A DNA stretch of 64,000 bases from an uncultured Bacteroidales bacterium (lineage in GTDB: Bacteria > Bacteroidota > Bacteroidia > Bacteroidales > Muribaculaceae). The notes under the pieces were generated by a model. The model was not told where the DNA came from and ran no database searches. It saw nothing but the letters and a program-made list of their open reading frames with translations. The translations under genes were made by a program, and so were the position numbers. Positions 12,592-16,458 of the stretch are shown one piece after another. The stretch spans positions 1-64,000 of the forward strand of contig CACZNH010000003.1 of assembly GCA_902782465.1 (NCBI GenBank). The letters are read 5' to 3'. Every line of letters begins with the position of its first letter. The first letter of the stretch is position 1.

Positions 12592-14226
12592 CTACGGTTC
12601 GATGAAGACTGGGGTTCCCTTCTCGTTTTCGTGATTGATCTCGATCAGTTTCTTGATTAGGCACTGATTAACTAAAGGGCTGAGGTCCATATCAAGAGGA
12701 GTGATGTTAAAGGTCTCGTAGCTCTTTCGTATATACCAGCTTGGATAGCTCATCGCCTTGAGCTCATCATTATCCATCTGCTGATGTCCAACGACTTTGA
12801 AGGCTGTCAGTCTTTCGGGTTTCTCCAGCTCATATAGTACCAATAGAGAAGTCCTGTCAAACATGTCTCGATGCTCTTCCACGGATCCCTTTGTTCTTCC
12901 CAACCTCACATTATAGATGTTATGATCAAGAACCCATTCTCTCTGTCTCTTGTCCTTGGTACATCCAATGAGGATAGTCTTGTCTCCACCAAAGAAGTTA
13001 ATAATGGCCTGGTCGAAACGATTCCACTTGTAACACTCAAATGGTTCCGCTGCCTGCATTAGTTCATTGCCATTCTCAGAATAAGCTACTACCTTTGTCC
13101 GCAGGTCAATAATTCTTGCTTTCTCTGATTGTTCCACAATGCTGTGAGCAGCATCAAGTCTGAGGGTTGCATATTTGACCACGTTTGCAATAACAATCTT
13201 TTCTACTACACTCATCAACTTCTCCATAGCTGAGAGGTCTGGTTCACCAGCAACATTACAGGGAAGTGAGATATTTAATGCATCAGCGTCTTTTGCGTAA
13301 AAATTGTGCCCATAGTCGAATTGACCATTATGAGCAACTTTATGACAAGCTGTTGTGACAAAAATTGCGGCGTGTTTTGGTAGTTTCTCCGTATGTACCA
13401 CCGCAATATGGTCGTCTGCCCCATAGTCGTAATTACGATATTTAGCAGAGCCAAACATATCAATTGTTGTGGTATTATTGGAGAATACGTCAACTTGATT
13501 GCCTATAAATGCGGATATGCCAGTTTCTGCCTCTCCTGCAGTTACAAATGGAAGTGATCCTGGGATGCGATCATCGCCTTTTAAACGTTTACCACGAGTT
13601 GACTTGCCAAAAAGTTTTTCTATATTGAACTCCTGCCATTGCCAATTATGGAAGTTATCAAGTACTTCATAATCATCCTCATTAAGTACATAATCATTTA
13701 GTCCAGTGGCAAGTAGATAAGCCTCGAGTTCGCGCAAGCGCGACTCCTCGAGTTCGCGCAAGAAATTCTCCATAAACACGAAATCGATTTCCCCATCTGA
13801 ATTGATGGGGAGCGATATCTTGAAATCATGACTTTGCGAGCTTCTTAGTTTGTTCCCGTAAGAATACTTCCCATCTAATGATTTACCAATGATAGCAGAA
13901 ATGAATAGCATTGCGTTGGGAGAGTATTCTTTGATATCGCTCCAATATACTCCTGTGTCATCGCCAGCACCAAAAGCATAACTGCGATAGAAAGTATTGC
14001 CAAAAATATCAATAGTTATGGCATTGGCCGGGAACGAAGCAACAGGATTCGAGATATATCCAATTACACCTTGATTAGTAGTACCAGACATTACAAAAGG
14101 GATACTCCCAGGTTTTTGGTCTTCCTTTTTCAACCGACGCCCCTGCTCTATATGGTTAAATAATTCTTTCAATTTGTATTCACCCCACTTAACGTTTTGC
14201 AGCCTTTCGTTAAGCGGGGTTAAAGT
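12592..14226 (-). CDS. BcgI-like specificity (S/B) region with two target-recognition domains, probably translated by -1 frameshift from the upstream gene
   Basis: The frame from 14226 to the TAG at 12594-12592 encodes 544 aa. Two related target-recognition domains are visible. The first is WGEYKLKELFNHIEQGRRLK...PFVMSG. The second starts with WQEFNIEKLFGKSTRGKRLK...PFVTAG. These resemble HsdS and BcgI-type S subunits, which choose the DNA site. About 170 C-terminal residues (from SIVEQSEKARIIDLRTK on) are an extension I do not recognise. The first in-frame start-like codon, TTG at 14172, would cut off WGEY and other conserved residues. The frame is open back past the end of the nuclease/methylase gene, in the -1 frame. 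A frameshift signal at 14182-14245 would fuse both parts into one R-M-S protein of about 1,226 aa, as in single-chain type IIB enzymes. Confidence 0.82.
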   Translation of the reverse strand, partial: TLTPLNERLQNVKWGEYKLKELFNHIEQGRRLKKEDQKPGSIPFVMSGTTNQGVIGYISNPVASFPANAITIDIFGNTFYRSYAFGAGDDTGVYWSDIKEYSPNAMLFISAIIGKSLDGKYSYGNKLRSSQSHDFKISLPINSDGEIDFVFMENFLRELEESRLRELEAYLLATGLNDYVLNEDDYEVLDNFHNWQWQEFNIEKLFGKSTRGKRLKGDDRIPGSLPFVTAGEAETGISAFIGNQVDVFSNNTTTIDMFGSAKYRNYDYGADDHIAVVHTEKLPKHAAIFVTTACHKVAHNGQFDYGHNFYAKDADALNISLPCNVAGEPDLSAMEKLMSVVEKIVIANVVKYATLRLDAAHSIVEQSEKARIIDLRTKVVAYSENGNELMQAAEPFECYKWNRFDQAIINFFGGDKTILIGCTKDKRQREWVLDHNIYNVRLGRTKGSVEEHRDMFDRTSLLVLYELEKPERLTAFKVVGHQQMDNDELKAMSYPSWYIRKSYETFNITPLDMDLSPLVNQCLIKKLIEINHENEKGTPVFIEP

Positions 14227-14245
14227 TTTCCCAGGCCATCCTCCT
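14182..14245 (-). promoter_or_regulatory. Predicted programmed -1 ribosomal frameshift signal
   Basis: Read on the minus strand. SD-like AGGAGG lies at 14245-14240. The slippery heptamer G GGA AAA is at 14232-14226 in the nuclease/methylase frame (CTG GGA AAA CTT TAA). The zero-frame stop TAA is at 14222-14220. After a 5-nt spacer comes a stem-loop with arms ACCCCGCTTAACG (14220-14208) and CGTTAAGTGGGGT (14194-14182): 13 pairs including one G-U, around a 13-nt loop. A slip to the -1 frame gives GGG AAA ACT TTA ACC and enters the specificity frame. The order and spacing are those of known bacterial -1 sites. Confidence 0.75.
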
Positions 14246-16271
14246 CATTGCTGGATTTTTTCTTTAGCAGATTGCTTACCTCCCATGCAAGATACTCTGC
14301 TACTGTGTTGCGGAAATCATCGAGCGTGGGACGCGTATCTACTGGGGCAGTCTGGTTCCAGTCGGCTCCGTTTTTGGGGTCAATATGTCCCTCATAGAAG
14401 TCTTTCTCATTGATGTAATGAAGTTTCTCCTTGCCGTAGCGAACAAGTTGAACCACTTCTTCGTACCGTTCACCAGCATGGTCGGAATCGCGAAGATTCA
14501 CCGATGCCTTCTTCCGATTAGTGCGGGTGTAGCCATCGTTGGTGAAGTCGATGAAACGAACAATGTCGTCCTTCTGGTGCGCCTCACCTACGCGGAAAAC
14601 GTATATGTTGGTTTGTACCGAACTTTTGCCGATAAAAAGATCAAGCGGCATCTTGATGCTGGCTAGCAACGTAGAGTGTTCAAGTATGCTACGGTTATAC
14701 TCCACAGCCTTACCGCTTCCTGCCGAGTTCTGTATAATAATGGCAGCATAGCCGCTGTTCATCATAGAAAGAGCTCGCTTCACAAACACCATGCCATTGC
14801 CTGGAGCAGAATAAGGTGGATTAAGAACAAAAGCATTGGCTGGGAAAGGACGTGAAGTGTCTCCAAAACCATAATTTCCATCAAAGTTTAGAAGTGAATC
14901 CTGATTGAGTACGTTAGATGAACCGTCACCCATCAATATCATATTGAGGGTAGCAAGCATATAGATGTTCTCCAAAATCTCGAGGCCGAGAAGTTGGTTG
15001 GCTTTTATCTCAGCCTCTTTTATCAACAACTCTTCAGGTGAATTGATATGGGCTTTGGCATCTGAGAGCATTTCATTCATGGCAGCAACAAGAAGACCTG
15101 CGCTACCAGTAGCAAAATCCCAAACGTAGCTGTTGCGATTAACACGAGCCAATTTTACCAATAGTGTAGCAACGTATGATGGAGTGAGAACCACATCGTT
15201 GAGTTTATCCTGTGTAAACCCCAGCCAGTTGTACATCTCATTGAACAAGCGACCTGTGAAATCGGTTGATAGACCAATCTTATAGTAAATGCCGAGGTCA
15301 TCCACTACTTTGCAGAAAACTCGTTTCAGTTGGCTTTCGCCATTATCTGCACGATTGATGTTTTCTGTAGTTAGGGTGTTCTCTAATGTGCGAACAATAA
15401 GGTCCTGTTTATCTTTGGGTATTTTCTTACTATCATCAGCCAAAAAGGCTTTAATCTTACGGATGATAATGTCGCCATCACGTTGGCCTTGTTCCTGTGA
15501 GGAGGTGAGATCTTGCTTTTCAAGAGGCTTTACTTTATTGGGAATGCCAAGAGTAGCTATAATTGTTGCCGCTACAAGATAAACGCGTCCACTCTCAGAA
15601 ATACCTTTCTCGTTTTGATAAATGTCGTTGTTCAGTTTAATGAGGCTGATATTGATTTCCTGTTCGCGACGTTGCTTTAGTTTTTCTAGTTCATCAAGGC
15701 TGAGGCTGAGGTTATGAACCTGTTCAACGAAAGCTTCGAAATGTTTCGGAGTAAGGAATGAAAGGTCAGTAAAGTCACCTACTTGCTGACCTACGCCAAA
15801 GTTGTCTTTGCCAACGTAATAAACTCCAATCTCGTAATGCAGTTCTTCAGTAGCGGAGTCACGATAGCCAGTGATTCCAATGGAAATAATATGTTCATAA
15901 GTAGTGTAGTGTAATAGCGCAGTAGCATAATGAACAGAACCATTAACGGCATATTGACTGATATTCTTAAACTCAGGCTGTCCCTTGGCGTTACGATTGG
16001 CTACATGACCATCAGCGTCTAGTTTTACAAGTTTGTCTTTATATCCCTTGTATTCTATGAGTATCGGCCACCATTCGCCTCGGCTGTCTTTCAGCAACAA
16101 GCTACAATCTGGACGATTGCCCCCTGAACCACCTTGTTTTGATTCGTACTCCAGTAGAGCATTTTTGATTTCTTCGTTAGGAGCATCTTGCTCTATGAAA
16201 TATTTGAGCTTGTATTTTTTAAGCCAGCCATTAGCCAAATCGGCTATCTGTGGTTCTACTGATTGTGCCAT
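14220..16271 (-). CDS. BcgI-like type IIB restriction endonuclease/adenine-N6 methyltransferase (R-M, A subunit)
   Basis: 683-aa protein from ATG 16271. It has a PD-(D/E)XK nuclease region (NRPDCSLLLKD ... ILIEYKG: Asp55, Glu73, Lys75), a helical spacer, then a gamma-class N6-adenine methylase with motif I DFATGSAGLL (385-394) and motif IV NPPY (484-487). Nuclease-methylase fusion plus a separate specificity region is the BcgI type IIB architecture, which cuts on both sides of a bipartite site. An upstream in-frame start (16316) was not used because a -7 box (16289-16296) falls inside that extension. The zero-frame product ends KL* right after a slippery heptamer, so termination may yield an R-M subunit and frameshifting an R-M-S fusion. 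It is flanked by unrelated metabolic genes, consistent with a defence-gene insertion. Confidence 0.85.
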   Translation of the reverse strand: MAQSVEPQIADLANGWLKKYKLKYFIEQDAPNEEIKNALLEYESKQGGSGGNRPDCSLLLKDSRGEWWPILIEYKGYKDKLVKLDADGHVANRNAKGQPEFKNISQYAVNGSVHYATALLHYTTYEHIISIGITGYRDSATEELHYEIGVYYVGKDNFGVGQQVGDFTDLSFLTPKHFEAFVEQVHNLSLSLDELEKLKQRREQEINISLIKLNNDIYQNEKGISESGRVYLVAATIIATLGIPNKVKPLEKQDLTSSQEQGQRDGDIIIRKIKAFLADDSKKIPKDKQDLIVRTLENTLTTENINRADNGESQLKRVFCKVVDDLGIYYKIGLSTDFTGRLFNEMYNWLGFTQDKLNDVVLTPSYVATLLVKLARVNRNSYVWDFATGSAGLLVAAMNEMLSDAKAHINSPEELLIKEAEIKANQLLGLEILENIYMLATLNMILMGDGSSNVLNQDSLLNFDGNYGFGDTSRPFPANAFVLNPPYSAPGNGMVFVKRALSMMNSGYAAIIIQNSAGSGKAVEYNRSILEHSTLLASIKMPLDLFIGKSSVQTNIYVFRVGEAHQKDDIVRFIDFTNDGYTRTNRKKASVNLRDSDHAGERYEEVVQLVRYGKEKLHYINEKDFYEGHIDPKNGADWNQTAPVDTRPTLDDFRNTVAEYLAWEVSNLLKKKSSNEEDGLGKL

Positions 16272-16288
16272 AGTTTTACTCTTTATAG

Positions 16289-16296
16289 CAAAGTTA
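16289..16296 (-). promoter_or_regulatory. -7 box closest to the restriction-modification gene
   Basis: TAACTTTG on the minus strand fits TAnnTTTG. It predicts transcription from about 16281, 10 nt before the ATG at 16271, and excludes the upstream start at 16316. Confidence 0.45.
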
Positions 16297-16458
16297 ATTT
16301 CATGTTTATCAACCATTTAGTTTCCTGTAATTATTTCTACAGGAGACAAACTGCCTTGTTTCAAAAACAAACTCCAATGCAGTCCCTGCAGGCCGACCAA
16401 AGCCTATATAACCGCAAAGGAGTTTGTTATATCGTTCAACTCTCGGTCTTTCGCAGGT

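Follow-up and report, generated by a model that had tools for sequence, protein, structure and literature searches.

A 64,000-nt stretch of DNA from an uncultured Bacteroidales bacterium of the Muribaculaceae (the window; positions 1 to 64,000, forward strand, of contig CACZNH010000003.1, NCBI GenBank assembly GCA_902782465.1) carries, on its minus strand, the genes of a BcgI-like type IIB restriction system, in which a frame encoding a combined restriction-modification chain (RM) is overlapped at its 3' end by a frame encoding a specificity protein (S). It is proposed here, at a probability of roughly 0.92, that the two frames are decoded as a single gene through -1 programmed ribosomal frameshifting, with slippage being deduced from the layout of the RM/S junction. 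That a -1 signal joins the two frames had been put forward in a first-pass annotation of the window, and is supported by the sequence, by conservation and by covariation.

A candidate frameshift signal at the RM/S junction

The elements of the junction and the two frames that meet there are as follows.

14220-16316, minus strand: RM gene, zero frame, encoding nuclease, helical connector and N6-adenine methylase and ending LGK-L-stop (open reading frame (ORF) of 698 aa, domain matches)
14245-14247, minus strand: TGA closing the S frame upstream (sequence)
14240-14245, minus strand: Shine-Dalgarno (SD)-like AGGAGG, 7 nt 5' of the heptamer (sequence)
14226-14232, minus strand: slippery heptamer G_GGA_AAA in zero-frame phase, codons GGA AAA (sequence, conservation in relatives)
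14220-14222, minus strand: zero-frame stop TAA, ending the RM ORF
14182-14220, minus strand: 13-bp stem-loop, arms 14208-14220 and 14182-14194, presumed stimulatory structure (fold, covariation, synonymous-shuffle control)
12592-14226, minus strand: S part after the -1 slip, 544 aa, with two target-recognition domains and a C-terminal extension (domain matches, homology)

On the minus strand, RM ends as CTG GGA AAA CTT TAA, such that the heptamer is followed by CTT and then by the stop codon. The series of elements described in the first-pass annotation for positions 14182-14245, namely AGGAGG, 7 nt, G GGA AAA, 5 nt and a 13-bp stem, was found to be correct at each base, as was the claim that the zero-frame TAA (14222-14220) lies within two codons of the heptamer. 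The 5-nt spacer between heptamer and hairpin agrees with the rule that RNA structures serving -1 frameshifting begin 4-10 nt downstream (PMC4066793). The minimum free energy (MFE) of the hairpin is -20.7 kcal/mol (z -4.1), with none of 200 dinucleotide shuffles being equally stable.

The S frame lies at -1 relative to RM, with the two frames overlapping by 25 nt, and, as previously claimed, has no ATG or GTG ahead of the first S motif. The first start-like codon, TTG at 14172-14170, lies within that motif, WGEYKLKELF; the earlier placement of the motif upstream of this codon was therefore wrong. Similarity of the window S to its relatives begins at the heptamer. The predicted fusion comprises 697 + 544 = 1,241 aa from the first ATG, such that the length of about 1,226 aa given earlier holds only if translation begins at the Met at residue 16. 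Accordingly, an in-phase X_XXY_YYZ within the overlap, a downstream structure, an SD-like stimulator (an optional element) and a startless, conserved downstream frame, as expected of -1 frameshifting, are all present at the window. A composite heptamer-plus-stem pattern, composed only after the window and its relatives had been inspected, had a single match in the 64-kb window and none in 100 shuffles.

The frame relation and the heptamer are conserved in relatives

Searching with the S protein yielded 15 loci in named genomes, with RM also being present in only one of these (L002). Searching with RM at E <= 1e-40 yielded matches in 9 of 297 genomes of the family, 9 of 393 of the order and 1 of 395 of the phylum, with the genome of the window being counted every time and being the sole match in the phylum-wide sample. 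Four more families yielded 2/14, 1/19, 4/71 and 1/140 genomes, each count including one genome already known. Two scans of viral contigs returned 1 and 13 loci, with one in common, and searches elsewhere matched 38 plasmid records, 51 phage records and 29 of 5,426 Escherichia coli genomes, of which 14 matches were examined. In this manner, 61 loci were gathered (L numbers below, with the window locus entered twice, as L001 and L017), in 47 of which the RM match reaches the C-terminus.

The S frame is found at -1 in 39 of these 47 loci, and 37 of the 39 present an in-phase slippery heptamer; in terms of distinct junctions, 29 of 31 do so. Relatives that keep the -1 relation, their RM proteins being 44-85% identical, come from related Bacteroidales, an Acinetobacter plasmid, E. 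coli chromosomes and phage contigs. Among the 37 loci, S is incomplete in L029, where the contig stops 22 codons into S, and is just 226 aa long in L040. The heptamer is GGGAAAA in 12 of the 29 distinct junctions, GGGAAAG in nine, AAATTTT in four and AAAAAAG in four, with the type varying by lineage and the location within the junction being preserved. Within RM bodies, 170 of 18,146 codon positions carry an in-phase heptamer, at which rate some 2.5 of 29 overlaps would contain one by chance. A second in-phase heptamer lies inside the overlap in L021, L032 and L041. A zero-frame stop follows the heptamer in 29/29 junctions, no more than two codons past it in 27 and later in L026 and L032.

At all 21 distinct -1 junctions encoding Gly-Lys at the site, these residues are spelled GGA AAR preceded by G, with the residue ahead varying between Leu, Gln, Ala and Glu; GGA accounts for 29% of the Gly codons in RM bodies. 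As GGGAAAR itself fixes GGA, this count is partly circular and states only that no -1 Gly-Lys junction is spelled otherwise. Between the upstream stop of the S frame and the first S motif, ATG and GTG are missing from 22 of the 29 junctions and ATG, GTG and TTG from 14, and no position of a start codon is common to all 29.

The remaining loci include five of the 47 in which S has its own ATG and no heptamer, four at +1 (L024, L038, L039 and L061) and one at -1 (L057), and four in which RM and S are fused in frame (L022, L025, L046 and L055). Normally started homologues without the signal, considered in the first-pass annotation as evidence against it, thus exist near the frameshift loci, although the window has closer relatives than these, with none of them appearing in its main tree group.

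In the E. coli records of L059 and L060, S is annotated as a pseudogene 'missing N-terminus and C-terminus' plus a second coding sequence despite there being one open frame. In L040, the annotated S starts at an internal TTG, and in L041 at a codon other than ATG, GTG or TTG.

A covarying hairpin and an SD-like element accompany the heptamer

Because the 29 junctions were chosen for their heptamer and many are related, the shuffle counts that follow are not to be read as probabilities, nor is any product of probabilities claimed, as relatedness inflates it. When the stem was laid over the 19 junctions that align without gaps, 94.7% of the cells were paired, as compared to 35-47% for slid versions. 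Five stem pairs changed on both sides, a number reached by 12 of 500 shuffles, and the covariation score of 0.311 (0.215 when shuffled) was reached by none of 500. A clear covarying pair, U-A replaced by C-G at columns 41/63 in six sequences, involves a silent Leu change on the 5' side and a Lys to Glu change in S on the 3' side. In the comparison of related loci, of the kind that the first-pass annotation had called for, heptamer, spacer and stem were found to be conserved, with compensatory changes in the stem.

When MFE was compared to that of synonymous recodings of the same S peptide, a mean z of -3.47 was obtained, with z being below -2 in 28 of 29 junctions and none of 300 recodings being as stable in 13 of 29; the weakest values were those of L054 (-1.41) and L021 (-2.01). 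When the 60 nt after the heptamer are folded, the lowest-energy structure has a stem close behind the heptamer in 28 of 29 junctions. A sliding-window statistic gave lowest z values of -1.1 (L046), -2.1 (L022), -0.6 (L025) and -2.8 (L055) for the fused loci and of 0.4 (L038), -0.6 (L039), -2.5 (L061), -1.5 (L024) and -0.3 (L057) for the own-start loci; in the frameshift set, a comparable statistic spanned -5.7 to -1.3 (28 of 29, L029 being too short). An SD match of at least 5 nt was found in the 15-nt zone in 18 of 29 junctions, as compared to 6.4% of background windows.

A search of viral contigs for the exact heptamer-plus-stem pattern gave 0 matches, the pattern having required CCCCACT, which is missing even from the window. 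No relevant Rfam family was found for positions 13900-14500, with two snoRNA matches lying far under gathering.

Putative frameshift loci, own starts and fusions are mixed in the RM tree

A tree was built from 41 RM proteins, of which L027 and L058 occupy less than a quarter of the columns. One group (support 100/98) contains 20 of the 21 GGGAAAR rows, all four AAAAAAG rows and the fused L046 and L055. A second group (94/86) contains the AAATTTT loci, L035, the five own-start loci, the fused L022 and L021, this last (GGGAAAA) pairing with the own-start L057. No heptamer type forms a single clade. The mixed composition of the groups suggests that frameshifting, own starts and fusions were gained and lost alternately.

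Phage L028 (GGGAAAG) and E. coli chromosome L040 (AAAAAAG) encode almost identical RM proteins, with differing heptamers and stems. Since RM is nearly the same and the heptamers differ, the signal was exchanged, perhaps together with S, with the -1 relation being preserved; upon specificity exchange, S may bring the 3' end of RM along with it. In our view, no other argument for selection acting on the shift itself is as strong as such signal replacements.

The fused L022, L025 and L046 retain about 180 aa of S and one recognition domain. Pfam counts one stretch in L022 and L046, and the single domain of L025 and L055 was judged by length and sequence only. L046 nests among GGGAAAG loci, yet has neither GGGAAAR nor a strong hairpin. 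In L055 (IMG/VR 2558860905), one extra A at the GGGAAAA site puts S in frame, such that its hairpin may be a remnant. In the fused ORF of L055, one recognition domain precedes a GACA/CAGA tetranucleotide tract, through which a second such domain, lying in another frame, would be joined; the second half of this S looks to be phase-variable.

The RM and S proteins of the window

The methylase domain of RM matches N6_Mtase (PF02384, E 1.7e-19), and the protein matches the PADLOC type IIG restriction endonuclease-methyltransferase model with 758 bits (2.8e-228). Residues D70, E88, K90, D400 and N499-P-P-Y are invariant across 12 aligned RM proteins, with D70 being merely nearly invariant in a separate alignment of 11. 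By its motifs, the N-terminus is taken to be a PD-(D/E)xK-type nuclease. Nuclease, judging from the PADLOC IIG model and these invariant residues, and N6-adenine methylase, judging from domain match, invariant residues and fold, are united in one RM chain, and the gene content is that of a BcgI-like type IIB system, which would be expected to assemble as (RM)2S and to cut both strands on either side of its site.

The predicted RM fold is weak in places (mean predicted local distance difference test (pLDDT) score 69.9, predicted template-modeling score 0.45). Its best Foldseek matches are type I methylase subunits (EcoKI M) and BsaXI, the BsaXI chains ranking 2, 5 and 6 with E 2.5e-9 to 1.5e-8 over about 700 columns at a template-modeling score of just 0.25-0.31. 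When compared to the PDB by sequence, neither RM nor S had a match at E <= 0.01, and in NCBIfam, S was unmatched and RM had only a match below cutoff.

In the window S, PADLOC detects two Specificity_II stretches, but Pfam only one Methylase_S stretch. Among the frameshift S proteins scanned (8 of 29 junctions), seven of eight contain two Methylase_S stretches, and in seven of eight the best stretch starts 13-24 residues from the heptamer, the exception being L033, where it is the second domain. On the basis of PADLOC and the relatives, the window S was judged to contain two recognition domains, as in type IIB enzymes.

Proposed decoding and subunit assembly

Ribosomes on G_GGA_AAA would face the 13-bp hairpin ahead and the SD-like pairing site behind. 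The Gly and Lys tRNAs would slip from GGA-AAA to GGG-AAA, such that a fraction of ribosomes would continue into S and generate an RMS chain, with the remainder stopping within two codons and releasing free RM. Slippage of tRNAs helped by a hairpin and an SD-like site is the standard model for such events. RM and RMS would probably pair, placing two RM units around one two-domain S that is tethered to one of them.

It is plausible, as suggested earlier, that frameshifting sets how much free subunit is made relative to fused enzyme, and this is sharpened here to (RM)+(RMS). We consider this functional reading to be probable, though less so than the frameshift itself. BcgI and BsaXI were reported as (RM)2S, that is, two RM to one two-domain S (PMC11997821, PMC3874165). 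An engineered EcoKI HsdM-HsdS fusion (type IMS) restricts in vivo, and in vitro cleaves only when extra HsdM is provided (PMC3510504), such that fusion plus free M constitutes the active enzyme in vitro. Frameshifting that gives rise to both RM and RMS would meet this need for a free subunit. EcoKI type IMS differs in being a man-made in-frame fusion, whereas at the RM/S junction recoding appears to supply the fusion and the free subunit together.

Alternatively, frameshifting could be real with RMS as the sole functional product and free RM a by-product. Single-chain enzymes with two recognition domains do exist, and TstI works as a homotetramer (PMC4027205). Still, an in-frame fusion would be simpler, yet the four fusions found carry one recognition domain, and the EcoKI M-S fusion behaved otherwise in vitro, as noted above. 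Hence, a functional role for RMS alone is considered unlikely, albeit the most serious of the alternatives.

G_GGA_AAG and A_AAA_AAG are among the best motifs in E. coli (PMC4066793), and the E. coli and Acinetobacter members end their heptamer in AAG. Of 13 GGGAAAR junctions from the order of the window (L002 included), nine end in AAA and four in AAG. A tRNA-Lys(CUU)-like sequence pattern, this being a pattern match and not a call by a tRNA finder, was detected in seven of eight GGGAAAA genomes, with that of the window being the sole exception, and in one of four GGGAAAG genomes (hypergeometric, one-sided, 33/495 = 0.067). The link between heptamer and tRNA-Lys hence fits but is not significant, and is suggestive only.

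A wider proposal, for which the odds appear to be even, is that of a recoding-dependent class of type IIB systems. Here, one gene and one mRNA would serve, with about half of the ribosomes shifting to yield (RM)(RMS), in which two active centers surround a two-domain S. The heptamer would be re-tuned to the tRNA pool of the host after horizontal transfer (AAA-ending in the presence of tRNA-Lys(CUU), AAG-ending in its absence), and in-frame fusion would be accompanied by the loss of one recognition domain.

Alternative routes to S and points against frameshifting

Translational coupling, or reinitiation at a TTG or another non-AUG codon close to the RM stop, could instead yield S as a protein of its own. 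The overlap of RM and S does resemble that of coupled genes, S starts at ATG in L038, L039 and L061, as it does in the distant BcgI-like L062 and L064, and 15 of the 29 junctions hold some ATG, GTG or TTG before the S motif at which S could in principle start. Coupling, however, has no need of a heptamer in phase or of a covarying hairpin placed at a nearly constant distance, and it would have to operate without a common start position and, in 14 of 29 junctions, without any candidate codon. Moreover, the frameshift loci are at -1, whereas four of the five ATG-started relatives among the 47 are at +1. Separate translation of S is thus deemed very unlikely.

Slippage of RNA polymerase at an A/T run, producing a mixed mRNA pool in which the frames are fused, was likewise considered. 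Six consecutive A residues are present in some junctions (the AAAAAAG loci and L021), yet the run is only 3-4 long in GGGAAAR junctions other than L021, shorter than transcriptional slippage usually needs. As this explanation would also leave the GGG half of the heptamer, the SD-like element and the spacing of the hairpin unaccounted for, it carries little weight.

Finally, a sequencing error or disrupted gene, in which a single ORF or an S with a normal ATG (e.g., the +1-frame ATG at 14239-14237) was broken, can be set aside almost entirely since, despite the window coming from a draft assembly of 45 contigs and L055 presenting the same site plus one A and fused in frame, the -1 relation with a heptamer is shared by 28 distinct junctions besides that of the window, some of them from complete E. 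coli chromosomes or a complete phage record, and the +1-frame ATG, which is not in the S frame, is missing from L018 and others. The assembly error contemplated in the first-pass annotation accordingly found no support. A single-nucleotide insertion or deletion separating S from that +1-frame ATG (MAWENFNPA-) was specifically rejected, the ATG being unconserved and the frameshift relatives keeping -1.

Several observations, together with the start-like codons of those 15 loci, weigh against frameshifting or against its proposed role. SD use is weak in Bacteroidales. The 29 junctions were selected for possessing a heptamer, such that 29 of 31 distinct -1 junctions (37 of 39 loci) is the fair figure. 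In L035, S is at -1 and only a U_UUU tetramer is present. L054 gave the weakest z against synonymous recodings, and its lowest-energy 60-nt fold differs from the shared stem. Hairpin z values of frameshift and other loci overlap at the weak end (own-start L061, fused L055), and the fused L046 retains two other in-phase heptamers nearby, TTTAAAA and AAAAAAT. BcgI itself functions with a free S. The introduction of PMC4066793 describes G_GGA_AAA as inefficient in E. coli, although the motif is listed among the 'more efficient' ones later in that paper. The EcoKI M-S fusion restricts in vivo without added HsdM, with the authors suspecting proteolysis or stalled translation as the source of HsdM (PMC3510504).

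Relation to known systems

As in BcgI and BsaXI, an RM chain comprising nuclease and N6-adenine methylase is followed by an S with two recognition domains. In those enzymes, however, S is a separate subunit with its own frame, whereas the window S is startless and lies at -1 behind a slippery site, such that a start codon of its own for S, as expected of BcgI-like type IIB systems, was not found at the window. AloI-like single chains measure about 1,250 aa (PMC3874165), and the predicted long product of the window is, as in AloI and TstI, an R-M-S chain, of about 1,240 aa. AloI and TstI are single polypeptides with one RM to two recognition domains, whereas the window locus, which lacks an uninterrupted R-M-S ORF given the zero-frame TAA, would make a terminated RM as well. 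The action of single-chain enzymes with this ratio has been called a mystery (PMC3874165), and RM/S frameshifting bears on the puzzle of how two-domain R-M-S fusions obtain one RM per domain. It could explain how the enzyme obtains its parts in the right ratio.

The -1 signal of dnaX likewise consists of an SD-like element, a heptamer (A_AAA_AAG) and a hairpin. The RM/S junctions present these three elements in the same order, and four distinct E. coli-type junctions even use A_AAA_AAG. The dnaX shift yields a shorter product, whereas the RM/S shift would yield a longer one, adding a DNA-recognition subunit. To our knowledge, dnaX, prfB and mobile elements aside, comparative analysis supports programmed frameshifting in few bacterial cellular genes; here, the shift would serve a mobile defense system across several lineages. 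In IS3-family elements, a -1 shift also joins two overlapping ORFs (PMC4066793), the product there being a mobile-element transposase and not a defense enzyme.

As had been supposed earlier, no programmed frameshift in BcgI-like systems was found to be described in the literature, among the matches listed. The same holds for a -1 programmed frameshift at the M-S junction of BcgI or of restriction systems at large, although an entry in the survey tables of PMC3711429, PMC4066793 or PMC3199440 is conceivable. A C-protein-restriction endonuclease fusion was examined for frameshifting by others, who saw no evidence for it (PMC3850674). Genome annotation misreads systems of the RM/S kind, as illustrated by S in the E. 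coli records, and the change of heptamer between lineages offers a natural experiment on the adaptation of frameshift sites to their hosts.

The C-terminal extension of S and an isolated RM match

One further feature of the window S lies outside the frameshift signal.

12595-13077, minus strand: C-terminal extension of S, possibly of a YTH/EVE/ASCH-like (PUA superfamily) fold (homology, AlphaFold/Foldseek)

This extension of about 160 aa has no Pfam match and is 58-70% identical to proteins in named Prevotellaceae and Bacteroidales genomes. Related sequences terminate, for example, an 859-aa ORF in Hallella seregens (L007) and, in L003, a 294-aa ORF that follows a helicase-like ORF of 750 aa with the look of HsdR. 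The AlphaFold model of the extension has a pLDDT of 81, and Foldseek ranks YTH and ASCH domains highest, with a best E of 2e-3 and no match at E <= 0.001; given these matches, the extension is possibly a PUA-like module that reads modified bases.

In Streptococcus satellite phage Javan305 (L063), positions 1018-1467 provide an isolated match to RM, confined to residues 12-161, and neither a methylase nor an S match was reported next to it. This stretch is probably the remnant of an RM/S-type system.

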